Shown piece after piece: positions 3,120-39,605 of a DNA stretch of 64,000 nucleotides. The stretch is from Halorussus gelatinilyticus (lineage in GTDB: Archaea > Halobacteriota > Halobacteria > Halobacteriales > Haladaptataceae), in the NCBI RefSeq assembly GCF_023238445.1, contig NZ_CP096658.1, forward strand, positions 1,736,001-1,800,000. Direction: 5' to 3'. Both the position numbers and the translations under genes were made by a program. Each line of letters opens with the position of its first letter. Position 1 is the stretch's first letter. Under the pieces are notes generated by a model that ran no database searches, was not told where the DNA came from, and saw only the letters and a list, made by a program, of their open reading frames with translations.

Positions 3120-3419
3120 CTACCGCTCGTGGTCGAGGGGTCCGTACCGCTCCTCGACGGCGTTCCAGTACGCCTCCAGAAACTCCAGTTCGGCCAGTCC
3201 CCCGGCGTCGATGTCTACCAGCAGGTCTTCGAGTTCGTCGCGCGGTTGGTGACAGAGGTCGGTGTGACAGCCTTTACAGAGGTACTCGAACTGTTTGCCC
3301 TTCCGGTCCCAGCGGTCGCCCTCCTTGTCGTACTCTCGGGCGTCCGAGCGACGAGTGGTCTCACCGCAGGCGATACAATCGACCGAGTCGTTTCCCCGGT
3401 TGCTCCGGGAACCCCACAT
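3120..3419 (-). CDS. Small haloarchaeal zinc-finger protein (DUF7562-like)
   Basis: A 99-residue protein read from the ATG that gives MWGSRSNRGND; four codons upstream (MDTG) are also open. It carries two CxxC pairs, CIACG at about residue 15 and CKGC at about residue 49, which together could bind one zinc ion, followed by CHQPRDELEDLLVDIDAGGL. I recognise the pattern as a conserved haloarchaeal family without known function. DNA or RNA binding is possible but unsupported. It stands alone between the RNB gene and the rhodanese gene. Confidence 0.7.
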   Translation of the reverse strand: MWGSRSNRGNDSVDCIACGETTRRSDAREYDKEGDRWDRKGKQFEYLCKGCHTDLCHQPRDELEDLLVDIDAGGLAELEFLEAYWNAVEERYGPLDHER

Positions 3420-3605
3420 ACCAGTATCCACGGGCCGGGCTTACTTGCGGTTTTTGGTCGTTTCCTGAGTAGATTCGACGGGAATGAACGCGAAATTAAC
3501 GACGGCTTACCCCGGCACTCTCGGGTCGAACGCGCCCGGAGCGCAGCCGGATTCCGACTCCGAGCATCGCGGGGCTTATCCACCCGGACCGCCAACGTGG
3601 GGTCG

Positions 3606-3995
3606 ATGGACGCCGAAATCGCTCCCGACGAGGTTCGGGAGCTCCTCGACGCCGACGACGAGGTCCGAATCCTGGACATCCGCTCGGAGGAAGAGTTCGA
3701 GCGCGGACACATCCCCGGCAGCGAGAACGTGCCGTTCCACGCGCTCGCCGACGAGATAGAGCGACTCGACGGCGCGCGGCGCGTCGTCACCGTCTGCCCG
3801 CACGGGAAAGCCAGCGTGCAGGCCGCGCGACTCGTCGCCTCCTACGAGGGTCTGCCCGACGACGCGCGCGTCGAGAGCATGGCCGGCGGTCTCTCGGAGT
3901 GGGACCACGAACTGGAGACCGCCGAGGGGTCGGCGGGCGACGCAGAAGCCGACGCGTCGGAGAACTCCGCCGACGGTCCGGACGCACCGTTCTGA
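3606..3995 (+). CDS. Rhodanese-domain sulfurtransferase
   Basis: A 129-residue single-domain rhodanese. The start at 3606 gives MDAEIAPDEVRELLDAD. The signature DIRSEEEFERGHIPGSENVP (residues 24-43) and the active-site loop CPHGKAS with Cys64 are both present, followed by the C-terminal GGLSEWDHEL. The cysteine accepts a sulfane sulfur to form a persulfide. The physiological sulfur donor and acceptor are unknown. The last 30 residues are an acidic, probably disordered tail. The gene converges on the DUF5810-like gene, with only 7 bases between the stops. Confidence 0.85.
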   Translation: MDAEIAPDEVRELLDADDEVRILDIRSEEEFERGHIPGSENVPFHALADEIERLDGARRVVTVCPHGKASVQAARLVASYEGLPDDARVESMAGGLSEWDHELETAEGSAGDAEADASENSADGPDAPF

Positions 3996-4002
3996 ACGTT
4001 CG

Positions 4003-4473
4003 CTACTCCTCGTCTGCTTCCTCGCCGTCGGTACGTCCGTCGGCACTCTCCTCCTCGTCGCTCTCGTCCAGCATCTCCTCGGTCATCTCTCTGGCCTCTT
4101 GGAGAATCGACTGGGCGTCACCGTCCAGCGACCCCGTACCTGCCGCGCCTGCGCCTGTGCCGCTGGCCATCGACCCGCGGCCCTGCGAGTTGGCGCGCTC
4201 CAGTTCGTCTTCGAAGAGTTCGCCGCCCTGCGGTTCGTCGCCAGCGTGGTCGTGCGTGGTGTCCTCGAAGACCTGCGGGAAGCCGACCTCCTTGGCGTAC
4301 TCCTCGACGCGCTCGGCGAGTTCGTCCTCGCCGTCGTCGCTCCACCCCGGCGCGTGGTCGTCCAGCCACTCCTCGTGGTCGTCGTCGCCGAGCATCGCCG
4401 TGAACGCGAGGTGGTTGGCGAGGTGTTCGGCGTCGGACTGAGGCGTCTCGCAGACCGGACAGGCGTATCCCAT
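4003..4473 (-). CDS. DUF5810-like haloarchaeal protein
   Basis: A 156-residue protein started at 4473, giving MGYACPVCETPQSDAEHLAN; the upstream in-frame MALFGAGDLPRN is an alternative. The N terminus holds a CPVC pair followed by HLANHL, a possible C2H2-like zinc site. The middle is acidic (DDHEEWLDDHAPGW). The C terminus is low-complexity and Glu/Asp-rich with a short helical stretch. The family is restricted to haloarchaea, has no assigned function, and commonly sits next to rimI, as here (69 bases downstream of it and probably co-transcribed). Confidence 0.72.
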   Translation of the reverse strand: MGYACPVCETPQSDAEHLANHLAFTAMLGDDDHEEWLDDHAPGWSDDGEDELAERVEEYAKEVGFPQVFEDTTHDHAGDEPQGGELFEDELERANSQGRGSMASGTGAGAAGTGSLDGDAQSILQEAREMTEEMLDESDEEESADGRTDGEEADEE

Positions 4474-19687: not shown

Positions 19688-20413
19688 ATGGTCTCCCGCA
19701 CGCGCCGCCACCTCCTCCACGTAGCGACAGCAGTTGCTGGTGGACTGGCCGGATGTAGCCAGTTCACCGGGAGCGAAGCCTCCTCGACGCGCTCGATTTC
19801 GAGCGAGGGGTCGGCCGTTCCCGAGTCCGACGCCCTGACCGATCCACCGATGGTCCGCCGACGGGCCGCCGAGCCGCCGATTCGCCTCGGAGACCCCGAC
19901 CGCGAGACCACCGAGTCACCGCGACGGGAGGCGTTTTCCTCGCTCGACGAGTACGAGGTCATCGACGCACGGTCTACCGCCGACCGACTCGGGGTCGCCG
20001 ACGGTATCGACGGCGACGCGGTTTCCTCGTTCGTCGACGCGACGAACTTCGACAGCGAGACGCTCTACTTGGAGACGAGACCGGTCGAAGAGTGCTTCCG
20101 ACTGCGCCTCTGCTGGATATCGTGGCAGTCAGGCAAAATCGAGACCGACTACGTGCGGCCGCTTCGCCCCTACGACGAGCGGTGTAGCGCCGACGAAACG
20201 GTCTTCGAATCGCGGCTGATTCGTCTCCCCGTCGCCCTCGACGCGGATTCGGTCAACTCCTACGGGTCGAGCATCAGCGGGAGCAGTCACTGCCGCGGCG
20301 GCGGTGCCGTCCGTGCCGAGATGGCTGGCGGAAGCGACGACGAAACGACGACAGCCGATACGACGATAGTAGACACGACGACAGCCGGACCGACCGAGGA
20401 GAGCGACCGATGA
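19688..20413 (+). CDS. Tat-exported lipoprotein, function unknown
   Basis: A 241-residue protein with a twin-Arg lipoprotein signal (TRRHLLHVATAVAGGLAGCS, lipobox Cys at about 23), so it is expected to be lipid-anchored on the outside of the membrane. A Ser/Glu-rich linker follows. The central part (YEVIDARSTADRLGV ... LYLETRPVEECFRLRLCWISWQSG) has a folded look with three further cysteines and another near the C terminus. The end is a Thr/Asp-rich tail. Its stop overlaps the next start (ATGA), so the two lipoproteins are probably translated together. Confidence 0.7.
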   Translation: MVSRTRRHLLHVATAVAGGLAGCSQFTGSEASSTRSISSEGSAVPESDALTDPPMVRRRAAEPPIRLGDPDRETTESPRREAFSSLDEYEVIDARSTADRLGVADGIDGDAVSSFVDATNFDSETLYLETRPVEECFRLRLCWISWQSGKIETDYVRPLRPYDERCSADETVFESRLIRLPVALDADSVNSYGSSISGSSHCRGGGAVRAEMAGGSDDETTTADTTIVDTTTAGPTEESDR

Positions 20414-21699
20414 GGGGAGACGCCACCGGAACGCGGCGGGGCTTTCTGGCGGCCGCCGGTGTGGCGCTGTTCGCGGGCTGTAGCGAGTTCGGCCCGCTCG
20501 GCGACGATTCCAGCGATTCCGTCCTCAGCCATGAGTTGCCCGACGTCACCGACGACGGCGAATCCGAACCGGTCGTCGCCGAAGCGATTCCCGTCACTAT
20601 CGAGCGGTCGAAACTGGACGAAGCGACGCGGCGCGTGACGGCGCTACTGGAGACGCTCCCGATGCCGTTCGGTCCCGAAAGCGTCCCGAACGGCCACATC
20701 AGACGCCGACTGCTGGACGCCGCCAGCGACGCGACGGCACGCGTCGAGGACGCCCGAACGGCCCAGACGCGGTTTTCGGCGCTTCGGTCGCTCCGCGAGG
20801 CGCGCACCAGCGCCCGGTACGCATCGGCCGGGTGGGGATTCGTCGAGCGCGACCTGACGCAGGGCGACTTGGCGGCCGAGCATCGGCGAGCACTCGACGA
20901 GGCCCGCGAGCTTCGAGCGAACCACGAGTATCTCGGGGCGGACCCGGTCCGCGCGGCGCTCGTCCACGCGCACGTCGAGCGCAACCTCGACCGGGTTCTC
21001 GACGCTCGCACGCCGTCCGGCCGCGTCGAGGACGGCTCCCTGCTGGCGGTCGCCGAGTGGGGTGAACACGCCGAGCAGGCGACCGCGTTCGTCGCCGACA
21101 GCCGGTATCTGTACGGTCAGTTCACGGCCTCGCTTCCGTCCGACGCCGGGACCGTCGAGGAGCGACTCGCGACCGCGGCCGAACGTCTCGCGCGCGACCT
21201 CCGGAGCCGTCGAAAGGACCTCCCCCCAGAACCGACCGAGAACGACCGCGACATCGCGTGGTGGCTCCGGTATCGACTCCGCGACGCCGCGGCGTCGAGT
21301 GCAGACCCGGTCGCCGACGCGACCGGTCCCGCCGGTGCGGTGTTGGCCGCGACTCGAGGACTCACCGATTTCCTCGCGTACGACCGCGTTCGCGACCGAA
21401 CCGAGGGCGGCGAGCGGTTCGGGGTTCGGAGCGCGGCGGAGGTTCGGACGGTGCGCTCGCAGGCCGTCGAAGCGATTCGGACGGCGCTCGAAGGGAGTCC
21501 GCGACCGGAACTCGTCCGCCCGGTCCTCGCAGATGCGGCGAGTCGAGTCGCCTTCGCCGACGAAGCACTCGCTCGGTATCGGGGCGAGGTACGACTCGCG
21601 CGACTCGACGACCCGCTACGTCGATACTACGCCGCGACCGCCCGCGCTCGGAGTGCGCCGTCGGCGTGTCGGCGCGTCCTCGACGCGCTCGAAATTTGA
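20410..21699 (+). CDS. Tat-exported lipoprotein, mostly helical, function unknown
   Basis: A 429-residue protein with the signal TRRGFLAAAGVALFAGCSEF (lipobox Cys about residue 24). Beyond a short acidic linker it consists of Ala/Arg/Leu-rich helices over its whole length, without obvious repeats or catalytic motifs. Its start overlaps the stop of the upstream lipoprotein by four bases, so the pair forms one operon and perhaps a surface complex. It converges on the PolB2 gene with 11 bases between the stops. Confidence 0.68.
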   Translation: MRGDATGTRRGFLAAAGVALFAGCSEFGPLGDDSSDSVLSHELPDVTDDGESEPVVAEAIPVTIERSKLDEATRRVTALLETLPMPFGPESVPNGHIRRRLLDAASDATARVEDARTAQTRFSALRSLREARTSARYASAGWGFVERDLTQGDLAAEHRRALDEARELRANHEYLGADPVRAALVHAHVERNLDRVLDARTPSGRVEDGSLLAVAEWGEHAEQATAFVADSRYLYGQFTASLPSDAGTVEERLATAAERLARDLRSRRKDLPPEPTENDRDIAWWLRYRLRDAAASSADPVADATGPAGAVLAATRGLTDFLAYDRVRDRTEGGERFGVRSAAEVRTVRSQAVEAIRTALEGSPRPELVRPVLADAASRVAFADEALARYRGEVRLARLDDPLRRYYAATARARSAPSACRRVLDALEI

Positions 21700-21710
21700 A
21701 GACTGCGAAC

Positions 21711-23810
21711 CTAATACCGATTCAGATTCGCGTCCTCCCTCTCCGCCAGATACCCGCGAATCTCGCGCTCGCGCCATCCGAGCGGCGACAGAACGCTCTC
21801 GGCCGCGCAAATCACCTGCTCGGCGTAGTACTCCGCGTCGTACCCCTCGGCCTCACCGACGAGCGCCACTCGGCCCCGAGAGGATTTCGCGTCGTCCGCG
21901 ACGACGTACTCGACCGACTGCCCCGGCCGCACGTCGCGGCCCTCGTCGGCGGCCGATTTCAGCGCCGCGACCGTCCGCGTCGAGTGTCGGTACTCCTCGA
22001 CGTGCTTCGAGACCCGAGACGTGACCGCCAAGTCCTTCGGGTCCACGTCACCGTCTCGAAGCCGACGAACCGCCGCTCCTACACGGTCACAGACCGTCTC
22101 GGGCGACCGATGCTCGTCGTAGACCGCTATCAGCTCCCGCTGGACCTCGGCGACGAACGGCGACGTACTCCGCTGGCGACACTCGATACCCCGGAACTTG
22201 AACTCGTCTTCGTCCGCCACCGACCCGAAGTACTTCGTCAGTGCCCCGGCCTCGCTATCGCGTAACGGCACGAACGCCACCCAGTCGTACTCGGCTTCGT
22301 ACTCTAGCCGAATTCCTGCCTCGGCGGTAATCTCCTCGGCGAGCGCGTCCAGCGACTTCTGCTCGACGCCCTCCCGAGGAGTAACCCAGATGCTGTCCAC
22401 GATGCCGTGGACGACCCGCCACTCGCCGTCCTCAAGCCGCTCTTTGGTGTCGAGCAGAATTTCGCGGGCGAACGCGTTTATCGTCTCGTGGCACTCGATA
22501 CGCCCGAACTTCGCGTTCGAGAAGCCTTGATAGCCGAAGCACGAGACGAGAATCCACTTGATAGCGTCCGACCGACCTTCGAGTTCGGCAAGTCGCTCCT
22601 CGTCGTCGGTCTCTCGAATCTCGGCCTTGATGTCGTCGCGAGCATTGATGAGTGGCTGTAGTACGTCCGGCAGGTACCCGCGCTTGTCGCAGATGCAGTA
22701 CCCAAGCCCCGGTACGTCCTCGCGTTCGCTGTGACAGTTACACCGAACCTTCTCGGGCGAGACGTTGTACTCGCAGATGATGTTCGGGTAGAGCGACGAG
22801 AAGTCGAGTTCGTGAACGTCGTCGTGAACGTCCACGTTGGGGGAGAACGTGAACCCGCCGCGGTCGGCGTCGTTCAACTGCCGCATCGTCTTGAACTGCT
22901 CGGGCCGCCACGCCTGCCACGGGACCAGTACGTCGCGAGATAGCGCCTCGCGTATCTGAATCGCCGTCAGGACATTCCCGATGGACGCCCACGAGAGTTC
23001 CTGCAACGGCTTTCCAGAGCGTCGCACGAGGTCGATACAGCCCGCGATATTCGTCTCGTCGTAGAAGAACGTGTTCGACCTGTCGATTACCACTCGTCCG
23101 GGCACGTTGTACCGGGCGGGCGAATGTCCGACCCGTCCGTAGCTGGTGTAGGTCGATTCCCGAGCGAGTTGCTGGAAGCCCGGTCGCCGTCCGAGTTGCA
23201 GGTCGTAGCGGAGTCGGTCGGCCAGTGAGTGCAACTCTGCGAGAAGTTTCGCCGAGTCTACGACCAACACGTCCGGGTCCTCGCGGGCGACGATCTCCTC
23301 GACGCGCGGCAACGCACGGTCGGGCGACCGACCTACCCGTTCGCCGCCGACCGACAACGCGGGCACCTCCTCGTCTTCGAATTCGTGCGCTCGCCCTTCG
23401 ATAGCGAGCGTCGAGACCCTCCGCTCGGGCGCTGGCGAACGACCTGTTTCGAGGCAGTAGCGGAATTCTCGCGAGAAATCGACGTTGAAACAGCGGTACT
23501 CGCCGGGGTCGCCCCGCTCGTGAAGCCAGCGGGCGAGTCGTGAGACCTCTTCGACTGTCGTCACATCGACGCGAACCATTGCTTCGGCGTCGTGGCGGAA
23601 GCCCGGCCGCCACTCCTCGACGCTCGTCCGGGCGACCGTGAGGAACTGGTCGAGCGTCGCCTGCGCGTCCGCGAGCGACTGCTCGTCGCCCTCGCCGCGG
23701 CCGACGTAGAACGTCGGCGTGTAATCCTGCACGCGCTCGCTCGTCGCGCCCTCCTCGGTCAGCGTCCACTCGACCACTTCGCCGTCGAAGAAGTCGATTT
23801 TGTAGGCCAT
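21711..23810 (-). CDS. polB2: Family B DNA polymerase, PolB2 type, with altered motif C
   Basis: A 699-residue polymerase. Motif A is LDFSSLYPNI (Asp336), and motif B lies in KWILVSCFGYQGF (418-430). Motif C is GIVDSIW (469-475), keeping only one Asp (472) where replicative enzymes have YGDTDS. The exonuclease region is degenerate: the first exo motif is replaced by STLAIEG. Four cysteines (357, 359, 372, 374) between motifs A and B could bind a metal. These traits match archaeal PolB2, long considered inactive but shown in Sulfolobales to support damage-induced mutagenic synthesis. It ends a three-gene operon with a RecA-fold protein and a small helical protein. Confidence 0.85.
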   Translation of the reverse strand: MAYKIDFFDGEVVEWTLTEEGATSERVQDYTPTFYVGRGEGDEQSLADAQATLDQFLTVARTSVEEWRPGFRHDAEAMVRVDVTTVEEVSRLARWLHERGDPGEYRCFNVDFSREFRYCLETGRSPAPERRVSTLAIEGRAHEFEDEEVPALSVGGERVGRSPDRALPRVEEIVAREDPDVLVVDSAKLLAELHSLADRLRYDLQLGRRPGFQQLARESTYTSYGRVGHSPARYNVPGRVVIDRSNTFFYDETNIAGCIDLVRRSGKPLQELSWASIGNVLTAIQIREALSRDVLVPWQAWRPEQFKTMRQLNDADRGGFTFSPNVDVHDDVHELDFSSLYPNIICEYNVSPEKVRCNCHSEREDVPGLGYCICDKRGYLPDVLQPLINARDDIKAEIRETDDEERLAELEGRSDAIKWILVSCFGYQGFSNAKFGRIECHETINAFAREILLDTKERLEDGEWRVVHGIVDSIWVTPREGVEQKSLDALAEEITAEAGIRLEYEAEYDWVAFVPLRDSEAGALTKYFGSVADEDEFKFRGIECRQRSTSPFVAEVQRELIAVYDEHRSPETVCDRVGAAVRRLRDGDVDPKDLAVTSRVSKHVEEYRHSTRTVAALKSAADEGRDVRPGQSVEYVVADDAKSSRGRVALVGEAEGYDAEYYAEQVICAAESVLSPLGWREREIRGYLAEREDANLNRY

Positions 23811-23814
23811 CTGT

Positions 23815-24099
23815 CTACGACGCCGCGTCGTCTGCCTCGGTCGCCTCGGAGCGTCCGCCCTCGAGTTCTGCTTCGAGGTCCTCGATACGCTTCTCCTGGG
23901 CGAGGAGCATCGAGAAGAGGACGACGACCATCGGGTTCTGGTGGTTCAAGTAGCCGCCCGCGTCGGCGTGCTGGCGGGCGTCCTCCCAGAGGCGGTCGAA
24001 GCGGTCTTGGTCCGGACGGCGGAGTGCCCGGCGGTAGTCCTGCCAGTCGTCTTCGAGCGACGTGAGTAGGTCGCGGAACGTCGGGTTAGTACGCCCCAT
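23815..24099 (-). CDS. Small helical protein of the PolB2 operon
   Basis: A 94-residue protein started at 24099 (MGRTNPTFRDLLTSLEDDWQ). It has two helical parts: a charged N-terminal half with DRFDRLWEDARQHADAGGYL, and a C-terminal coiled-coil-like MLLAQEKRIEDLEAELEGG. It overlaps the end of the RecA-fold gene by 14 bases and stops four bases before polB2, so translational coupling across all three is likely. I recognise no characterised family. The position suggests an adaptor between the other two products. Confidence 0.75.
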   Translation of the reverse strand: MGRTNPTFRDLLTSLEDDWQDYRRALRRPDQDRFDRLWEDARQHADAGGYLNHQNPMVVVLFSMLLAQEKRIEDLEAELEGGRSEATEADDAAS

Positions 24100-24778
24100 G
24101 CGCCACCTCCGGCGTCGTGGTCGTCTCGGCCGCCGACACGCGTGCTTCGAGGACACACCGCCAGAACGAAAGCGTCGTCTGGACCGTGCCGTCCTCCATC
24201 GGGTAGACCAGCGTCTCGAACTCGTCGCCGACGAACCGCGGTCCGAATTTCGTCTGCTCGCAGCGAATCGTCTCGGTGGCGGCCGCGGCGAGCGGGTCTG
24301 AGAACGAATCCTGCTTCGAACGCGTGACGAGAACCGGCACGTCGTACTCGTCGGCGACGCTCGCGACGGTCGCCAGCGCCCGGAGGAATAGCTCGTCGCC
24401 CTCGTCAGCATAGGTCTCGGTGTCGCGGTAGAAGTGGTCGAACGCCGGGCAGACGACGAGTGACGTGTCCTCGTCTACTTGCTCCGGAAGCCTGCGAACG
24501 AGACTGTAGTGCTGGTAGGCGGTGAACCCGCGGGCGACCCGAATCCGGTCGAGCGTCCGCCCGCTCGGTGCGAGTGAGGCCAGCGACTGCGAGACCGCGT
24601 GACCCGCCGCGTCTACCCACACCGCGTTTCCATCGTTCATCAGGAGGTGGTCGAGGACGAGCGAGTGGAGCGGCCCAGTCGCTCGCTCGTCGCCGTCCAC
24701 GTCGAGGAGACGGACGCCCGTCTCTAACTCGGGTAGCTCCGGATCTGCTCTCCCACCGTTTTGACCTCTCGGGTGCAT
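24086..24778 (-). CDS. RecA-superfamily protein of the PolB2 operon, lacking a P-loop
   Basis: A 230-residue protein starting MHPRGQNGGRADPELPEL. The pattern (strand SLVLDHLLM, later TSLVVCPAFDHFYRD, then VPVLVTRSKQD, and an FGPRFVG segment) resembles the RadA/RadC-like paralogues of archaea. The usual Walker A GxxxxGKT is absent; the corresponding loop reads GDERATGPLHS. It may bind DNA or RadA filaments without hydrolysing ATP, as ImuA/SulA-like proteins do in bacterial mutasomes. It is the first gene of the operon, behind a TATA box and a tandem operator. Confidence 0.7.
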   Translation of the reverse strand: MHPRGQNGGRADPELPELETGVRLLDVDGDERATGPLHSLVLDHLLMNDGNAVWVDAAGHAVSQSLASLAPSGRTLDRIRVARGFTAYQHYSLVRRLPEQVDEDTSLVVCPAFDHFYRDTETYADEGDELFLRALATVASVADEYDVPVLVTRSKQDSFSDPLAAAATETIRCEQTKFGPRFVGDEFETLVYPMEDGTVQTTLSFWRCVLEARVSAAETTTTPEVAHGAY

Positions 24779-24802
24779 AGATATGTCTACAGGCGGTATC
24801 CC

Positions 24803-24808
24803 GTTAAG
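24803..24808 (-). promoter_or_regulatory. TATA-like element of the PolB2 operon
   Basis: On the minus strand CTTAAC lies 25-30 bases before the first ATG at 24778. No Shine-Dalgarno precedes the ATG, suggesting a leaderless mRNA. Confidence 0.4.
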
Positions 24809-24821
24809 CGTCGGCGCGCGG

Positions 24822-24841
24822 CTTCCAGAAGTTCCGAGAAC
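24822..24841 (-). promoter_or_regulatory. Tandem 10-bp operator, proximal site of the PolB2 operon
   Basis: On the plus strand the site reads CTTCCAGAAG followed directly by TTCCGAGAAC. The first unit has the palindromic core TTC-CA-GAA; the second is a looser match. It ends 13 bases upstream of the TATA-like element. A matching tandem site stands 11 bases from the TATA element of the Orc-like gene at 29 kb. Confidence 0.55.
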
Positions 24842-24895
24842 GGCGGTCTCCTTGGGAGGAGGCCCACACAGGCTGATAGCTCTAGTGAACGGAGG

Positions 24896-24915
24896 TTTCC
24901 AGAAGTTACCAGAAA
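24896..24915 (-). promoter_or_regulatory. Tandem 10-bp operator, distal site of the PolB2 operon
   Basis: TTTCCAGAAG is followed directly by TTACCAGAAA, flanked by an outer GTTTC/GAAAC inverted repeat. It lies 55 bases upstream of the proximal site. Confidence 0.5.
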
Positions 24916-25043
24916 CGAAAACGGATTCTGACTATCCAGCCACTGCCAGTGGCTGGAGAACACGCTTCGTTATCGAATCTTTCCGCCGAAACTTGACCGT
25001 AGTATTGCTAAATACGTGGTGCGAATTCATCGTGTCGATAGGG

Positions 25044-25275
25044 GGCACTGTCTAGATAAGGGAAACCGATAGACGGTGGGATGATGAATCAGTCGCAGCG
25101 CCCGTGAAATCGGTGTCTAATTGATGATACGATGCACCGCTAAGCCATGAGCAACGTGAATTCGGCGATCTCACCAAACACCTCACGTGAGATTCAGAAA
25201 GCTGCTCCATTCAGCCATGGTCGGAGAAGCGCTGTACCACCCGCCTACTCCAGAATCGCTTAACTAGACAGTGCC
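25044..25275 (+). mobile_element. 232-bp MITE, copy 1 (IS6-like ends)
   Basis: The element begins GGCACTGTCTAGATAAG and ends CTTAACTAGACAGTGCC, a 17-base terminal inverted repeat with one mismatch. It is flanked by a perfect 8-bp direct repeat CGATAGGG (25036-25043 and 25276-25283). It has no coding capacity. Read in reverse it matches the copy at 44763-44994 with one difference that I can find. The ends and the 8-bp duplication fit haloarchaeal IS6-family elements, which would supply the transposase in trans. Confidence 0.88.
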
Positions 25276-25422
25276 CGATAGGGGATAGTGACGGTTTGTA
25301 GTAGCAATCCACCGCGTTGTTGACCACTTTTCTCCAGCGACTACCACTCCAATTAGCAGGTTCACCAACTCAGCTGAACAACTGGTCGAAAAACATACCT
25401 GTTCAGTCGTGTTACTGGAGGT

Positions 25423-26502
25423 GTGCCAGACTGGACTCGGAGAGAACTACTCAAGGGAGTACCAGCCAGTATTAGTGTCCTCTCCGGATGCAGTCAATTT
25501 CCTGCTTCGTGGAGAGATGCAACGCCAGATTATACGTGGCAACAAAACGGCGAAGACCAAACCGTAGAGCTACTGGTGACTCAGAGCACGGTCTACACCA
25601 TCTGCTACCGATGTGAGTTCGGAACTCGTGCGCTCAATCGCCAGACCGGAGAACAGGAATGGACGTTCTCGGCCCCACGCGAATTGTTTACCGGCACGGC
25701 GACAGAACAAGTCGTCTACGTCGCTGGCAAAGATGGAGTCTTCGCACTCGATGCCGACACCGGGGAGCAATACTGGCACTATCCGACAGAAGAAACGGTC
25801 CGGACGCCGCCAGCAGTTGGGACTGAGTCAGTATACATCCGAAGCTACGACAGCACGTTGCACGCGGTTGATACTGCAACAGGCACCCGACGCTGGCAGA
25901 CAGCGCTCTCTGTCACGGGTGGAACCGCTCCGATGGCAATCGAGGATGGATTGGTCTACGTCGGGAGCGTTGGTAACGTCGTTTATGCGTTCGACAGCGA
26001 AACTGGACGCAAGCAATGGACGTTTACTGTCCAAGAGGATATCAGGCTCTCATCAACTCTTGCGAGTGAGACTCTGTACGTAGCCAGCGAGAACATTTAT
26101 GCACTTAATCCAAAGACTGGGACAGCTCGGTGGGAGTATACACCGAAAAGCGAACTTGGTTCGTTACTGTTGGTAGCGGAGAATCGAGTTTACGTTGGTG
26201 GACGGAATATCGTGGCCCTCGATGCATCGAGTGGAGAAAACCAATGGGGATTTCGTCTCCCAACTGAAGAAGGACTTCTTGGATTTTTAGGACTGGTTGA
26301 GAAGACGCTCTACGGATGGAATAGCCGGTATCTGTTTGCGTTCGATGTTGACCGTGCTGAGCTTCAGTGGCGAACAGAGGATATTGCAGAGTACAATTTC
26401 AAGCTTGTCACGATGTATGACGAGACGTTCTACTTCGTGACCCACGGTGAAGACATCTATGCCCTTCCGCTTCGCGAAGCAGAACGAGTATGGGGGAAAT
26501 GA
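25423..26502 (+). CDS. Tat lipoprotein with PQQ-type beta-propeller repeats
   Basis: A 359-residue protein with a GTG start and the signal TRRELLKGVPASISVLSGCS. The rest is a beta-propeller of the BamB/PQQ-repeat kind. Repeats of about 40 residues each contain a strand such as VVYVAGKDGVFALDADTGEQ or VYVGSVGNVVYAFDSETGRK followed by W. At least seven W-ending blades can be counted (EWTF, YWHY, RWQT, QWTF, RWEY, QWGF, QWRT). It is a surface scaffold or sensor of unknown partner. Its codons are clearly richer in A/T than those of neighbours, suggesting recent acquisition together with the adjacent MITE. Confidence 0.82.
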   Translation: MPDWTRRELLKGVPASISVLSGCSQFPASWRDATPDYTWQQNGEDQTVELLVTQSTVYTICYRCEFGTRALNRQTGEQEWTFSAPRELFTGTATEQVVYVAGKDGVFALDADTGEQYWHYPTEETVRTPPAVGTESVYIRSYDSTLHAVDTATGTRRWQTALSVTGGTAPMAIEDGLVYVGSVGNVVYAFDSETGRKQWTFTVQEDIRLSSTLASETLYVASENIYALNPKTGTARWEYTPKSELGSLLLVAENRVYVGGRNIVALDASSGENQWGFRLPTEEGLLGFLGLVEKTLYGWNSRYLFAFDVDRAELQWRTEDIAEYNFKLVTMYDETFYFVTHGEDIYALPLREAERVWGK

Positions 26503-26603
26503 ACGAAACGGAACGCCGAGCGGTGTAGCGCTTAATTCACGCTCTGTATCTTGCGACAGTTGAACCGACAATACTGGACAAGACGCCGTGCTACGAATTA
26601 CGG

Positions 26604-27296
26604 CTAACTCCCGAACTCGTCAAACCCAACCTGCTCGCCGATGTCGATCTCCTCGATGACCTCGGCCGAGTCGTTTGCGGGATTGTTCACCTTTTTCGAG
26701 ACGGGGTATGCCCGGAGTTCGTCAGGCCGGTACGGGTCAAGGACGGCCTGTAACTCTTCTTCGTCGTCGGCCGAGAGCCACGTCTGCTCGTCGCTCGCTT
26801 CGAGCATCACCGGCATCCGGTCGTGAATCGGTTCGACTACCTCGTTCGCGTCGGTCGTGATGATAGTCACGGTCTCCCGCGTCGTGTCTGCCGAGTCGCC
26901 CCACGTCTCCCAGAGTCCAGCGAACGCGAACGGCCGGTCGTCAGTCTGTGTAATCCGGTAGGGTCGTTTCGACCCGCGCTGGCCCTTCCACTCGTAGAAG
27001 CCGTCGGCGAGGACGAGACACCGCCGCTTGGCGAAGGCGTCGCGGAACATCGGCTTCTCCGCGACCGTCTCGGCACGAGCGTTGATGGGCGTCGGCGCGT
27101 CGTCCGGATCGTCCACTCACGCCGGAAGCAAGCCCCACTCGAACTGGGCGATTTCGTCCGCGTGGTCGTTCGTAATCGTTGCGAGGTCGTCGCCCGGCGC
27201 GATGTTGTACCGCGGCGTGATGGGTTCGATCGCCTCGGCGTCGAATTGCTCTTCGAGGACCGACTGAGGGACGAACAGCGAGGTTCGGCCACACAT
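26604..27296 (-). pseudogene. SRAP/HMCES-like (YedK) DNA-protein crosslink gene, interrupted by TGA at codon 60
   Basis: Reading from the ATG at 27296 the protein opens MCGRTSLFVPQSVLEEQF with the catalytic Cys2, continues through RYNIAPGDD, and reaches WGLLPA followed by TGA (27117-27119). The same frame then resumes VDDPDDAPTPINARAET with all later family features: NARAE, GFYEWK and the His in EPIHDRMPVML. The expected residue at the stop is Trp, so a single TGG-to-TGA change explains it. SRAP proteins covalently shield abasic sites in single-stranded DNA. Restart at the GTG after the stop would lose Cys2. Sequence error is possible. Confidence 0.85.
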
Positions 27297-27410
27297 GTCT
27301 CGTTAGTCGCGCTCCGAAGTATTAGGTACTCGCTCGTGTCTGCGGATAGAACGAGAAGCGTCCCGAGAATAGCGCAAAACACATCCTATATACATAAATA
27401 AACTTACTTG

Positions 27411-27887
27411 TTAGTCGAATCGGCCAGAGTTGTCCGTCGAACTAACTTGATAAGAAAAGTCACCGGACGCATATTCAACTCCCCCTAAGACACTATCGTA
27501 CTCCCTCTCAGGTGGTGACGGGTTGAATGGAATCCGCCCACCAGTCTCGGGTACCGCGCCGTCAAGTGTGAACTCGACCAAGTAGTAGACCGATTCGGTG
27601 AAGATATTCTTGAACGTCTGCGTTTCACCGGGGGTGACCGACGAGGTAGCTGTCAACGTGCGTTGCTGAGGTGGCACGGATACGTCGCCAGCAACCTCGT
27701 ACTCTTCTGCTGTCACAGACTTCGACCCGACATCTACAACAGAAATACCGATTACGTGAGGGAGGTTATCTTGATTCACGAATTGGAGACTCCCGGCCGG
27801 AATATCGTCGCTGAGGAACTCAGAACACCCAGCAAGACCTGTGATACTGAGCGCACCGAATGACGATAAAAACATACGGCGGTTCAT
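27411..27887 (-). CDS. Small Tat lipoprotein, function unknown
   Basis: A 158-residue protein started at 27887, giving MNRRMFLSSFGALSITGLAG with the lipobox ending in Cys. The longer frame upstream is Arg/Ser-rich and non-coding. The mature part looks like one small beta-rich domain (GSLQFVNQDNLPHVIGISVV ... YYLVEFTLDGAVPETGG), resembling secreted haloarchaeal Ig-like proteins. Base composition is lower in GC than the surrounding core genes. It lies directly downstream of the broken Orc-like gene on the same strand. Confidence 0.7.
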   Translation of the reverse strand: MNRRMFLSSFGALSITGLAGCSEFLSDDIPAGSLQFVNQDNLPHVIGISVVDVGSKSVTAEEYEVAGDVSVPPQQRTLTATSSVTPGETQTFKNIFTESVYYLVEFTLDGAVPETGGRIPFNPSPPEREYDSVLGGVEYASGDFSYQVSSTDNSGRFD

Positions 27888-27972
27888 ATACAAGGGTTGT
27901 AGAAATATGTTATGTGTTTTTTGTGTTCCTCGGGCTGGAGAGTGACTGACCTGATTCCATCCGTAGATTTGC

Positions 27973-28997
27973 TCACTCGATAGTGTCGAACGTCTCCGAG
28001 ACTGACCGATACGTCCGGTCGCGACTCGTTCCCTCCGCCTCGATGATGTCGTACTGGTCCATCTTCGAGAGGTAGTTTCGGACCGTCCGGTCGGTCTTTG
28101 GGTCGTCCATGCGCTCGCGGTACTCCTCGTACAGCGCGCTCGGCGAAATCGCGTCACGTTCCTCGATAATCTCGTAGAGGGTCTTCTGGTGGGGCGTCAG
28201 CGTCTCCACGTCTTTCTCGTGGCGCTCGGCGCGGGCTTCCGGAATCGAGGCGTCCAGAATCTCGTCGGTAATCGCCGACTCGTACTCTTGATGCGCCTGT
28301 CGCGCAGCCGTCCGCAGGATACTCAGTGCGACGCGAGCGTCGCCTGCGGCGGCGTCGGCGATGGTCGCCAACTGGCCGCGCTCGATAGCGCCCTCTTCGA
28401 GACCCCACTTCACGCGAGCGTCCATGATGGACACCAGTTCCTCGGAGTCGTAGCGGTCGAATCGAACGCGCTCGCACCCGGTGAGCCGACTGGTCAGACG
28501 CTCGTCGGCGTTGGCGAACAGTTCCCGCTCGGGTTGGCGATGAGCAGCATCGAGAACTGCGGGAGTTCGTGAAGCGTGTAGAGCAGGCGTTTGTCTTCGA
28601 GTTGGTCGGCTTCGTCGAGGATGACGACGCACGGTGGGCCATCGTACGTTCGCAACCGCTCGAAGAGTTCGTCGCGCGGCGTCGATTGGCGGTGGATGTC
28701 CACCGTCTTGCCGAGACCTTCCAGAATCCGGTAGAGCGTCCGAAACTCGGAGAAGTTCTGCCAGCAGTTGACGTACTGGTACTCCACGTCGAGGATTTCT
28801 TGGCGCAACTGTTCGGCGGTGTACTTGGCGAGACAGGTCTTGCCGACGCCCGAGGGACCGAGGAGAAGCGTGGTGTCGGCGGGGTTGCCGTCGGTCAGCG
28901 GTGCGAGGATTTCGGTGAGATGGGTGACTTCGGCGTCGCGGTGTTCGACTTCTCGGGGGACGAAGCCAGTCCGGAGGACCCGAGCGTCGGTTATCAT
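27973..28997 (-). pseudogene. Orc1/Cdc6-like AAA+ gene with a one-base frameshift
   Basis: From the ATG at 28997 ([20 protein letters not shown]) the frame encodes Walker A GPSGVGKT and Walker B VVILDEAD and reaches LLIAN. At 28531-28532 one base is missing: the next family segment, [16 protein letters not shown], continues in another frame with the AAA+ lid and a C-terminal winged helix (LYEEYRERMDDPKTDRTVRN) to the stop at 27973. Restored length is about 345 residues, typical of accessory haloarchaeal Orc proteins. The clean single-base loss may be real decay or a read error. It has no origin-like repeat array beside it, only a tandem operator in its promoter. Confidence 0.85.
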
Positions 28998-29022
28998 TGC
29001 TTCGGGTATCAAGTTCTCGGGA

Positions 29023-29028
29023 CTTAAG
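29023..29028 (-). promoter_or_regulatory. TATA-like element of the Orc-like gene
   Basis: On the minus strand CTTAAG is 26-31 bases before the ATG at 28997, the same relative place as in the PolB2 operon promoter. Confidence 0.4.
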
Positions 29029-29039
29029 CAAGCGGGTCG

Positions 29040-29059
29040 TTTCCGGAAGTTTCCAGAAG
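29040..29059 (-). promoter_or_regulatory. Tandem 10-bp operator of the Orc-like gene
   Basis: TTTCCGGAAG is followed directly by TTTCCAGAAG. Each unit has a TTCCRGAA palindromic core, and the two are exactly one helical turn apart. It ends 11 bases upstream of the TATA-like element. The same arrangement precedes the PolB2 operon. Confidence 0.6.
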
Positions 29060-29124
29060 TCCATCGGGGGTCGAGACGAATCCCGTCTCGAATCCTCGAG
29101 TCGGTCGGAGCGGACGCCCGGCCG

Positions 29125-29418
29125 CTACCGAACTCCGCACGTTACGGACCCCGCAGAGGGAGAACGGGGCCCGACGACGAGGGCTTCTGCGGACTCCGCC
29201 TCGTCGTTACCCGGGGTCTCCTCGCTCCCGGCCTCGGGTGTTTCGTCGCGGTCGGTCTCGGCGACCTCGGGTTCGTCCTCTGCGAACGCTTCTTGGTCGG
29301 GGTCGCTCTCGTCGGAGAACTCCGCGTCGTCCTGCTCGCGGTCAGTCCGTTCAATGCCGTCGGCCGATTCTTCGGCAGAAGTGGTATCGTCGGGCCTGCG
29401 TTTGAGAAGGGTCGCCAC
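29125..29418 (-). CDS. Possible small acidic protein
   Basis: A 97-residue frame beginning [20 protein letters not shown]. It is almost entirely Glu/Asp/Ser/Thr-rich, the composition expected of a disordered haloarchaeal protein, which is the only support for coding. No motif, membrane segment or ribosome-binding site is visible. It could be a remnant left next to the rearranged glutamine-synthetase-like gene. Confidence 0.3.
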
Positions 29419-29468
29419 GCGATTAGGGCGTGGGACCTCTCCGGCCCGCTAGTCGGCGCCTTCCCTTC

Positions 29469-30365
29469 TCAGTACACGGTCCGGAGGCGGTCGCGCTCCC
29501 ACGAGACCGCGCTGTCGGTGAACGCCTCCCAGTGGCTTCGCTTGACTTCGAGGTACGTCTCGAAGAGGTCGGTGCCCAACGCCGCCCGCAGGACCGAATC
29601 GGCTTCGAGCGCGTCGAGCGCCTGCCCCAGCGTCCGGGGGAGTCGCTCGATACCTCGGTCGGCGCGCTCGCCCGCCGGGAGGTTGCCGGGGTCGGCCGAG
29701 ACCGGTTCCGGGGGTTCGAGGTCGCGCTCGATGCCGTCCTTTCCGGCGGCGAGCAGGCCCAGCAGCGCCAGATAAGGGTTCGCGGTGTTGTCGGCCGCGC
29801 GGAACTCCAGTCGGGTGGACGCACCGCCGTCGCCGGGTTCCGGGGCGGGAATCCGGACCAGTGCCTCGCGGTTCCCCCGGCCCCAGCAGACGAACGCGGC
29901 GGCCCCGATTTGGGGCCGCAGTCGCGCGTAGGAGTTGACCGTCGGGGCCGCCAGCGCGACGAGCGCGGGCGCGTGGTCGAGGACGCCCGCGACGAACCGG
30001 CGGGCCGTGTCGCTCAGACCGTCGCAGTCCGGGTCGTGGAAGGCGTTCTCGTTCGGTCTCCTGCCCGCGATAGCGGTGTCCCACAGCGAGAGGTGGACGT
30101 GGCAACCGTTGGTCGAGTGGTCGAAGGGCTTGGGCAGGAACGTCGCGCGGTAGCCGCGGTCGCGCGCGACGCTCTCGACCGTCTCGCGCAGGAGGACGTG
30201 GTGGTCGGCCGCCCGGACGCCGGGTTCGTGGTCGGTGACGATTTCGTGCTTGCCCGCCGCGTACTCGGGGTAGTACTTCTCGACGGCGACGTCTTGGGCC
30301 TTCAGCGCGTCCACCGCGGCGAGGACGGTCTCCAGTCGCTCGGGCGGGTCGGCCGGGAGTTCCAC
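29469..30365 (-). pseudogene. Glutamine-synthetase-like enzyme, C-terminal two thirds only
   Basis: About 298 codons encode a GlnA-family catalytic domain: [32 protein letters not shown] (ATP/metal site), [20 protein letters not shown] and the arginine segment [15 protein letters not shown]. The missing N-terminal part would hold the beta-grasp domain. At about 30360 the homology stops abruptly and the opposite strand becomes an IucA/IucC gene. The frame upstream is only a shadow of that gene. The family also contains gamma-glutamyl-amine ligases, so glutamine synthesis itself is not implied. No start codon or promoter remains at the homologous boundary. Confidence 0.82.
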
Positions 30366-31064
30366 CCGACGACGTCGGTCCGGACGCTGTACGCGCCCGA
30401 TTCGCCGTTCATGGTCAAGGGGTCGCTCAACGTCGCCATCACCAACTCCGAGCGCGCGAACAAGCGGCCGGAACTCGACCGCGGCGTCGCCGTCGCGGAA
30501 CTGCTCGATACGGAACTCGGCGACGACCTCCGCGAGCGATTCCCCGACTTCGACGTGGTGCGGGGCCCCGCCTCGCTTACGCTGGACGTAGGCGAGGGGG
30601 CCGACGGCGAGTCCGAATCCGGCTTCGAGGTCGTCCTGCGCGAGAACGTCTTCCGGGGCGCGAACGCCGAGAACGCGGGACCGGTGGTCGCGCTCTGTCA
30701 GGACCGAATCGAGGGCGACGGCTCCCGGCTCGGCACCGTCGTCCGGACGCTCGCCGAGCGCGAGGGGCGCTCGACCGAAGCGGTCAGCCGCGACTGGTTC
30801 CGCCGGTACCTCGAAATCTCGCTTCGGCCGATTCTGTGGCTCTACATCGAACGCGGGCTGGGCGTCGAGGCCCACCAGCAGAACAGCGTCCTCGCGCTGG
30901 AGGAGGGCTACCCCGACCGGTTCTACTACCGGGACAATCAGGGCTACTACTTCCCCGAATCGAAGTACGACGAGCTAGACGACCTCCTGCCCGGCGTCGG
31001 CGAGCGCGCGCCGTGGGAGTTCGGCCCCCGAAGAAACAAAAACCTTCGGAAAAGGTGCCTATAG
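30357..31064 (+). pseudogene. IucA/IucC siderophore synthetase, internal fragment
   Basis: The frame shows the conserved core of NIS siderophore synthetases: [20 protein letters not shown], then [34 protein letters not shown] and [20 protein letters not shown]. Homology starts suddenly at 30357, roughly mid-protein, and ends near 31020, where FGPRR passes into unrelated NKNLRKRCL. N terminus, C terminus and promoter are therefore missing. These enzymes condense citrate or dicarboxylates with amines or hydroxylamines to make hydroxamate siderophores. The fragment lies just before siderophore uptake genes, so it is probably a leftover of a biosynthesis cluster. Confidence 0.85.
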
Positions 31065-38405: not shown

Positions 38406-39605
38406 ATGGGCGGGCTGTTCAGCGACGTGACGGACACCATCTTCCTCGACAAGGAAGTCCTCGAAGAGGAGTACCAACCGGACGAGATACTCGAACGCGA
38501 AGAGGAGGTCGAGGAGTACAAGTCCGCGTTCAAAGACGTCCTCTTCGGTCGCAATCCCTCGAACGTGATGCTCTACGGGAAGGCGGGCGTAGGGAAGACC
38601 GCAGTCACGCGCTACGTTCTGGACGAGTTGCAGACCGAGACCGACCAGCGCGAGGCGGCCGACGACCTCTACGTCCACCGGCACAACTGCAACGGCGACA
38701 CGATGTTCAGCGCCGTCCGGACCCTCGTGAACGGACTGCTCCCCAAGGGGAGCGCGTCGTTCCCGAAAAAGGGTCTCTCGACGGCCGACGCGCTCGAAGA
38801 GTTCTACAGCCAACTCGACCGCCTCGGGGGGACACACCTCGTGGTCCTCGACGAAATCGACCACCTCCAAGACGCGAACGAACTGCTGTACGAACTCCCC
38901 CGCGCTCGCGCGAACGACCACATCGAAGCGGCGCGTATCGGCGTCATCGGCATCAGCAACAACTACACCTTCCGCCAGCGCCTCTCGGCGAAAGTACAGG
39001 ACGCGCTCAAGGAGGAGGAAATCTCGTTCTCGACCTACGACGCCAACGAGTTGCGCGCTATCCTCCACGACCGGGCCGAGAAGGCGCTCTCGGACGACAG
39101 TTACTCGAACAGCGCCATCGCCAAGGCCGCCGCGGTCGCGGGCCGCGACACCGGGAGCGCCCGACAGGCCATCGACCTCCTCCGGAAGGGCGCGGAGATC
39201 GCCGAGGGCAACGACGAACCGATGGTCGAGGACGACCACATCGGTCTCGCCCGCGAAGCCGTCAAGCGCGGTCGCTTACAGGACAAGATCGAAGACCAGT
39301 CGCTGCACGCCCGCCTCGTCCTCGAAGCGGTCGCGCAACTCGACCACGTCGGCGAGACGCCCGCCCGCTCGAAGGAGATAATGCAGATGTACCGGCGCGT
39401 CGCCGCCAAGCGTGCCGAGGAACCGCTGACGACGCTCAAGAGCATCCAGAACCACCTCAGCGACCTCTACATGCTCGGCTTCCTCCTCCGGCGCGAGGAG
39501 AACGAGGGCCGGAAAGGCGGGTCGTACCACGAGTACGACCTCGACATGGACCCCGACGTGGTGTTCGAGGTCTGCGACGAACTGGACGAAGAAGACGCGG
39601 TGTAG
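38406..39605 (+). CDS. orc1: Orc1/Cdc6 replication initiator
   Basis: A 399-residue AAA+ protein with Walker A GKAGVGKT (58-65), Walker B LVVLDEID (145-152), sensor-1 ISNNYTFRQRLSAKVQDAL and a C-terminal winged helix (ARSKEIMQMYRRVAAKRAEE ... GSYHEYDLDMD). It binds origin repeats and helps load MCM. The gene is intact and follows the candidate origin directly, in contrast to the frameshifted Orc-like gene at 28 kb. Haloarchaea have several orc genes, each usually paired with its own origin. Confidence 0.92.
   Translation: MGGLFSDVTDTIFLDKEVLEEEYQPDEILEREEEVEEYKSAFKDVLFGRNPSNVMLYGKAGVGKTAVTRYVLDELQTETDQREAADDLYVHRHNCNGDTMFSAVRTLVNGLLPKGSASFPKKGLSTADALEEFYSQLDRLGGTHLVVLDEIDHLQDANELLYELPRARANDHIEAARIGVIGISNNYTFRQRLSAKVQDALKEEEISFSTYDANELRAILHDRAEKALSDDSYSNSAIAKAAAVAGRDTGSARQAIDLLRKGAEIAEGNDEPMVEDDHIGLAREAVKRGRLQDKIEDQSLHARLVLEAVAQLDHVGETPARSKEIMQMYRRVAAKRAEEPLTTLKSIQNHLSDLYMLGFLLRREENEGRKGGSYHEYDLDMDPDVVFEVCDELDEEDAV

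Follow-up and report, generated by a model that had tools for sequence, protein, structure and literature searches.

The question raised by this locus was whether three adjacent genes of a haloarchaeon encode a mutagenesis complex and, if so, how the genes are controlled. The genes lie at positions 21711 to 24778 of a 64,000-nucleotide stretch of Halorussus gelatinilyticus DNA (contig NZ_CP096658.1, positions 1,736,001 to 1,800,000; here called the window), and all three are on the minus strand. In the order of transcription, they are iRadA (24086..24778), which codes for 230 amino acids corresponding to a RadA/Rad51 ATPase core, PPB2 (23815..24099), which codes for 94 amino acids of the arCOG07300 type, and PolB2 (21711..23810), which codes for a family-B DNA polymerase of 699 amino acids. 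The results described below made it highly probable that the three genes are a haloarchaeal PolB2 mutasome; we further propose that the operon is controlled via a tandem GGAA site, with a linked Orc1/Cdc6 paralogue as the most likely binder of this site.

iRadA and PPB2 overlapped by 14 bases, a gap of 4 bases separated PPB2 from PolB2, and the sequence GGAGGT was located directly 5' of the PPB2 start codon on the minus strand. The tight junctions reported in the initial annotation were therefore confirmed. To place the operon among its relatives, we used two sets of loci: the window plus 70 loci hand-picked from the iRadA match list at about one or two per genus (71 loci), and a named-genome set of the best 80 matches, which was partly shared with the first. 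Conservation was counted in 60 PolB2, 71 iRadA, and 68 PPB2 sequences. Because an iRadA match was found in 179/292 genomes of the class, and because PPB2 and PolB2 were both within the fetched stretch at 64/71 iRadA loci, the arrangement was not a product of chance. The 14-base overlap was seen at 28/64 loci. PolB2 matches were also found in 160 of 72,556 plasmid records, 89 of them covering at least 80% of the query, and on the Halobacterium plasmid pNRC200 an IS200/IS605 transposase gene was located ahead of PolB2.

An operon of this kind has been described across archaea and bacteria and named the PolB2 mutasome (Timinskas et al. 2025, PMC11791011), and the name PPB2 and the definition of its N-terminal motif come from the main text of that paper. 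The same text presents a model in which PolB2, iRadA, and a PPB2 trimer form a complex, with the N-terminal arm of PPB2 inserted between PolB2 and iRadA, and reports that orc1/cdc6 and SRAP genes are enriched near PolB2 operons. The mutasome interpretation is thus already in print, and the window locus is a well-formed haloarchaeal example. Specifically, the window shared with the published system its gene content, the order iRadA-PPB2-PolB2, the MGRT arm and Arg9 of PPB2, an iRadA that lacks both the ATPase residues and the N-terminal domain, the motif C loss and D(K/R) motif of PolB2, and the orc1/cdc6 and SRAP neighbors. Compared with the main text of PMC11791011, we found no essential difference. 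A canonical PCNA-binding (clamp-binding) motif, which only some members have, was not seen at the C-termini of the window iRadA and PolB2, where we looked by eye, with no profile search, for a QxxLxxFF-like string.

In the case of iRadA, single-sequence searches gave weak matches (Pfam Rad51-type, E 0.0032, below the cut-off; NCBIfam RadB, E 7.6e-6). A profile of 14 haloarchaeal iRadA sequences matched Pyrococcus furiosus RadA with an E value of 4.6e-13, although the alignment started only at profile position 43, and a conserved block, ARxFTxxQH, aligned with the ARAF region of RadA. Since the fold predicted without an alignment was poor (predicted local distance difference test [pLDDT] 44), we used a model built from 33 sequences, which had a pLDDT of 81 and a predicted template modeling score of 0.77. 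This model matched 50 listed Dmc1/Rad51/RadA entries with Z scores of 17.6 to 19.0 across 169 to 184 residues. No P-loop was visible when the 14 aligned sequences were inspected by eye. These results agreed with the earlier description of a RecA-fold protein lacking a P-loop, and they showed iRadA to be a RadA homologue without the N-terminal helical domain and the ATPase residues.

The small protein PPB2 gave no match at all in a Pfam search; its hallmarks were found at the N-terminus, which reads MGRTNPTFR. Gly2 and Arg3 were conserved in 68/68 sequences, Thr4 in 65/68, and Arg9 in 67/68. The text of PMC11791011 describes PPB2 as helical and places the MGRT arm and two arginines between PolB2, iRadA, and DNA.

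PolB2 scored 1050.9 bits against NCBIfam NF004418 (cut-off 692), which in our reading is the PolB2 group, and Pfam DNA_pol_B matched residues 286-672. Motif C of the window protein was H-G-I-V-D-S (Ile470-Val-Asp472); the first Asp was missing and the second, Asp472, was kept in 60/60 relatives. Asp336 of motif A was likewise present in 60/60, and the core of motif B was invariant. No exonuclease domain was matched in Pfam at E<=1, and matches to PDB sequences began at residue 230 or later. Both the single remaining Asp of motif C and the lost exonuclease, which had been noted from the sequence at the outset, were thus borne out. A D(K/R) motif was located at Asp243-Arg244, with Asp in 58/60 relatives followed by Arg in 39/60 or Glu in 14/60. 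The initial annotation had also pointed to four extra cysteines. We located these in a C-x-C-H...C cluster shortly after motif A (residues 357-374; window 22689-22742, minus strand), and three of the four held up: Cys357 and Cys359 were each conserved in 58/60 relatives and Cys374 in 60/60, but Cys372 was found in only 5/60. Because His360 was present in 47/60, a possible Cys3-His metal site made up of Cys357, Cys359, Cys374, and His360 seemed to be a better guess than a site of four cysteines.

The losses in PolB2 can also be read differently, namely, as the marks of a decayed and inactive polymerase relic that was spread by plasmids and has no catalytic activity. The lost motif C Asp and exonuclease domain fit such a relic, as does the finding that two neighbors of the window operon, orc and a SRAP gene, are broken, and a Haloferax review calls the Haloferax volcanii PolB2 predicted-inactive (PMC7776575). 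However, the invariant catalytic residues of motifs A, B, and C described above are not what a relic would be expected to keep, three intact open reading frames were found in the same tight order across genera, and Sulfolobus PolB2, which shares this loss, is reported to be active as an extender polymerase and to have no exonuclease (PMC8764526). We therefore regard an inactive relic as very improbable.

A second alternative followed from the initial annotation, which had compared the operon to the bacterial ImuA-ImuB-DnaE2 cassette. In that cassette, a RecA-fold protein, a partner, and a polymerase are also encoded in one operon; its polymerase, DnaE2, belongs to the C family, and ImuB is Y-family-like. 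The window operon follows the same logic, with a RecA-like protein and a small partner encoded beside the polymerase. Its polymerase belongs to family B, though, and its small protein, which is unrelated to the ImuA-ImuB-DnaE2 adaptor, has no Pfam match, so membership in this cassette type was excluded on the basis of the polymerase family and has next to no probability. The earlier reading was thus right in kind, as a PolB2 mutasome operon recognized by homology and hallmarks, but not as to the kinship with ImuA-ImuB-DnaE2. The analogy chosen in the text of PMC11791011 is E. coli Pol V (UmuC, UmuD'2, and RecA), which that text considers alike in architecture and logic. Pol V differs in having a Y-family polymerase, an active RecA, and a different small subunit. 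Because the homology was accompanied by the sequence hallmarks listed above, the identification of a haloarchaeal PolB2 mutasome operon was well supported.

The regions upstream of iRadA and of the linked orc1/cdc6 gene (orc; 27973..28996, minus strand), a paralogue of the PolB2-linked clade, contained a common pattern, [CT]GGAA-N4/5-[CT]GGAA, which was often followed on its 3' side by ACGAC and then by a TATA-like CTTAT or TTTAT. In the window, the core of the proximal iRadA site (CGGAACTTCTGGAA; 24823..24840, minus strand) started at position -58 relative to the start codon of iRadA, and the TATA-like sequence CGCTTAAC (24803..24810, minus strand), presumably the core-promoter element of iRadA, was located between the two. 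A distal tandem site in the same upstream region (24897..24914, minus strand) had a counterpart at -134 to -136 in several relatives. The orc site, TTCTGGAAACTTCCGGAA (29041..29058, minus strand), was also located 58 bases before its start codon.

As for the relatives, 27/71 iRadA promoters and 21/32 orc promoters had a strict tandem site in the 150 bases ahead of the start; 200 dinucleotide shuffles yielded means of 0.19 and 0.06 sites, respectively, and a maximum of 2. The site started at -58 to -64 in 25 of the 27 iRadA promoters and 20 of the 21 orc promoters. In the named-genome set, which overlaps the first, 19/66 iRadA and 12/23 orc promoters carried the site; four of these 66 iRadA rows (L232, L234, L264, and L269), none of them positive, had a start past the contig edge and the wrong upstream stretch. 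The start codon was often mis-set in plasmid-type iRadA genes with long N-termini, an error that could only cause sites to be missed. When the 3.67-Mb genome of the window was searched for TTCYGGAANNTTCYGGAA with up to two mismatches, 8 places were found. The only exact match was the orc promoter (29041) and the only place with one mismatch was upstream of iRadA (24897), so the two best places in the genome were the promoters of these two genes; the proximal iRadA site (24823) was one of six places with two mismatches. The words "halo," "promoter," "cysteine," and "zinc" do not occur in the main text of PMC11791011, and for this reason we consider the promoter site and the candidate Cys3-His site to be additions made here.

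Since haloarchaeal orc genes are often located beside origins, with G-string origin recognition boxes at 102/154 according to the text of PMC3528665, the GGAA sites might be replication-origin boxes of an orc-linked origin rather than operators. The sites, however, keep a constant spacing of about 58 bases from the start codons of two different genes, which favored a promoter element over an origin. In addition, the sites occurred in one or two copies, neither an inverted pair nor a G-string was seen in the upstream regions inspected by eye, and 10/40 iRadA loci that have no linked orc carried a site, too. It thus seemed unlikely that the GGAA sites serve an origin.

If the sites are operators, the linked orc product is an obvious candidate for the protein that binds them. 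An orc gene was linked to iRadA at 31/71 loci, typically upstream and on the same strand. In a distance count, the lower-identity 65 of the listed Orc rows were compared with iRadA among the matches listed. For 31/65, iRadA was no more than 6 kb away, and in 30 of these cases orc was upstream on the same strand; for 16/65, the genome had no listed iRadA. We then examined a tree of 94 Orc proteins, which was restricted to PolB2 loci and the window's own genome and left out the broken window orc. The PolB2-linked Orcs (a label set by identity to one member) formed one group in this tree, with a support of 98/51 for the exact set. When four more Orcs encoded at PolB2 loci were included, the result was a 54-row clade with a support of 100/99, and the Orcs of the window's own genome that were placed in the tree fell outside this clade. 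The tree therefore pointed to a PolB2-linked Orc1/Cdc6 paralogue that is distinct from the other Orcs of the window genome.

The association between site and gene was consistent with this candidate. The tandem site was present at 17/31 iRadA loci with a linked orc and at 10/40 without one (71 loci; Fisher p 0.014), at 11/23 and 8/43, respectively, in the named set (p 0.021), and at 27/63 loci in genomes with the Orc family, compared to 0/8 sampled loci in genomes without it (p 0.021); none of the three p values takes shared ancestry into account. Several observations weigh against the Orc reading. The strict site was missing from 44/71 iRadA promoters, and 18 of the 65 listed Orc rows were in genomes whose listed iRadA lies elsewhere. 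The window orc changes its reading frame between 28533 and 28581, and, if this frameshift is real, expression of the window operon would either be constitutive or require a different regulator. Moreover, sites of the same type in other genomes preceded integrase, transposase-like, and PadR-like genes (L320, L133, L135, L323, and L315, with the integrase at L133 and L135 identified by eye), which means that the regulon may extend further or that a different factor may be involved.

These points bear on a third alternative, in which some other haloarchaeal regulator binds the GGAA sites and the linkage to orc reflects only a shared damage-response island. The sites ahead of PadR-like, transposase-like, and integrase genes are in line with this alternative, and sites were abundant at loci with a distant orc. 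On the other hand, the strict site was present at none of the eight loci sampled from genomes that lack the Orc family, and the promoters that carried the site most often were those of orc itself (21/32). We consider another regulator to be a realistic possibility, but one that we are inclined to doubt.

The frameshift in orc was not the only interruption near the operon. The mutasome operon and orc are separated by a SRAP-type gene (26604-27296, minus strand) that by eye starts with MCGRT and whose reading frame contains a TGA stop codon at 27117-27119. SRAP matches were found at 8/80 named PolB2 loci. The orc frame change and the SRAP stop may be either real mutations or sequencing errors. 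A further Orc1/Cdc6 gene, which is more distant (28% identity to the linked Orc), was observed in the window at 38448-39371 on the plus strand. We also considered and rejected a second orc-like gene of the linked Orc's family elsewhere in the same genome (2948878): it was a partial frame, and the nearby GGAA-like string was not at a promoter.

Based on published models and on work in Sulfolobus, complex formation, damage induction, and mismatch extension can be inferred for the haloarchaeal system. In the mechanism that we propose, a proofreading-deficient PolB2 would extend primers past lesions as part of a translesion assembly, an ATP-independent, RadA-like iRadA would hold PolB2, and the MGRT arm of PPB2 would sit between the two, near the DNA. 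The Orc1/Cdc6 paralogue, or a factor inherited with it, would bind the GGAA repeats that directly precede the core promoter and thereby control its own gene by autoregulation as well as the mutasome operon, so that error-prone bypass would be conditional. The locus-specific Orc regulator acting through the GGAA site is thus a proposal based on promoter comparisons and on analogy. We put forward the strongest form of it tentatively, as somewhat less than an even chance: a dedicated damage switch in which an Orc paralogue that has given up its origin role acts on GGAA operators at about -58, ahead of its own gene and of the operon, and is inherited with the operon, and in which some modules have a PolB-like exonuclease that could edit in trans.

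The Sulfolobus PolB2/Dpo2 operon, which Orc1-2 controls via the DDRE motif, is alike in having PolB2, iRadA, and PPB2 genes and an Orc1/Cdc6 paralogue with an element before its own gene. According to the text of PMC9738581, Sulfolobus Orc1-2 binds the ANTTTC motif (DDRE) of its own promoter, and damage induction and mutagenesis have been reported for Sulfolobus PolB2 (the text of PMC11791011, citing others; PMC8764526). The elements differ: ANTTTC in Sulfolobus, and in haloarchaea a candidate element made up of a tandem GGAA at about -58. Should the linked Orc use the GGAA site as its operator, haloarchaea would possess an Orc-based damage switch comparable to the one in Sulfolobus; the short, mutable sequence offers a target for testing such a switch. 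In a literature search for haloarchaeal expression or genetic data on the PolB2 mutasome, only the Haloferax review was found; it places the Haloferax volcanii gene near a radA-like gene and describes it as deletable (PMC7776575), which makes the mutasome idea testable in a tractable archaeon.

A repeat resembling the Sulfolobus box was present in haloarchaea, too. This class B repeat, ACTTTCACTTTCACC, preceded 7/71 iRadA genes, yet it was found in 67/194 haloarchaeal genomes, also before threonine-dehydratase-like and topoisomerase-VI-like genes (names read from translations). It was rejected as a mutasome-specific element because it is widespread ahead of unrelated genes; the reversed control was nearly the same repeat and was thus not usable. 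Upstream of unrelated genes (L146-L175), ACTTTCACTTTCACC is perhaps a general promoter element.

In some relatives, the operon contained a fourth gene. An exonuclease-like gene of 214 to 228 codons was found inside the operon at 8/71 loci (L065, at 3373-4032, and L061, L063, L068, L101, L103, L129, and L130). In seven of these, it was located between PPB2 and PolB2, or right after PPB2 where PolB2 was beyond the fetched end; at L103, it was located between iRadA and PPB2. In the named set, 11/80 loci had the gene between PPB2 and PolB2, and five matches were elsewhere. The protein matched Pfam RNase_H_2 (E 1.4e-5), gave a weak match to DNA_pol_B_exo1 (E 0.015), and had no PDB sequence match at E<=0.1, and its FDIET, YNGxxWxxGFD, and HNxAD blocks look like intact exonuclease motifs. 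This stand-alone protein may edit in trans for a PolB2 that lacks its own exonuclease. The window operon is without such a gene.

Several other candidates were set aside. About half of the iRadA match rows aligned only at query positions of about 100-224, in frames of about 315 amino acids, and appeared to represent a second, unrelated family; this idea was dropped when 10/10 frames examined proved to be full-length iRadA with an insertion, with PPB2 following it in 10/10. A Rfam scan of 20000-31000 gave no match, and no defense family was found except for a homing-endonuclease model that matched PolB2, which we attributed to a polymerase-host artifact. The one-spacer pattern TTCYGGAANTTCYGGAA was found in 12/194 genomes, before orc and iRadA but before other genes, too. 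The pattern CGGAANNNNCGGAAACGAC gave 45 sites in 38/292 genomes and none with the reversed control, and it was rejected as a specific marker, with about half of the sites examined looking coincidental within coding sequence. One genome, G156 (L314-L317), carried six exact copies of CGGAANNNNCGGAAACGAC, located before two iRadA genes, orc, and three further places, and these copies possibly represent a small regulon.

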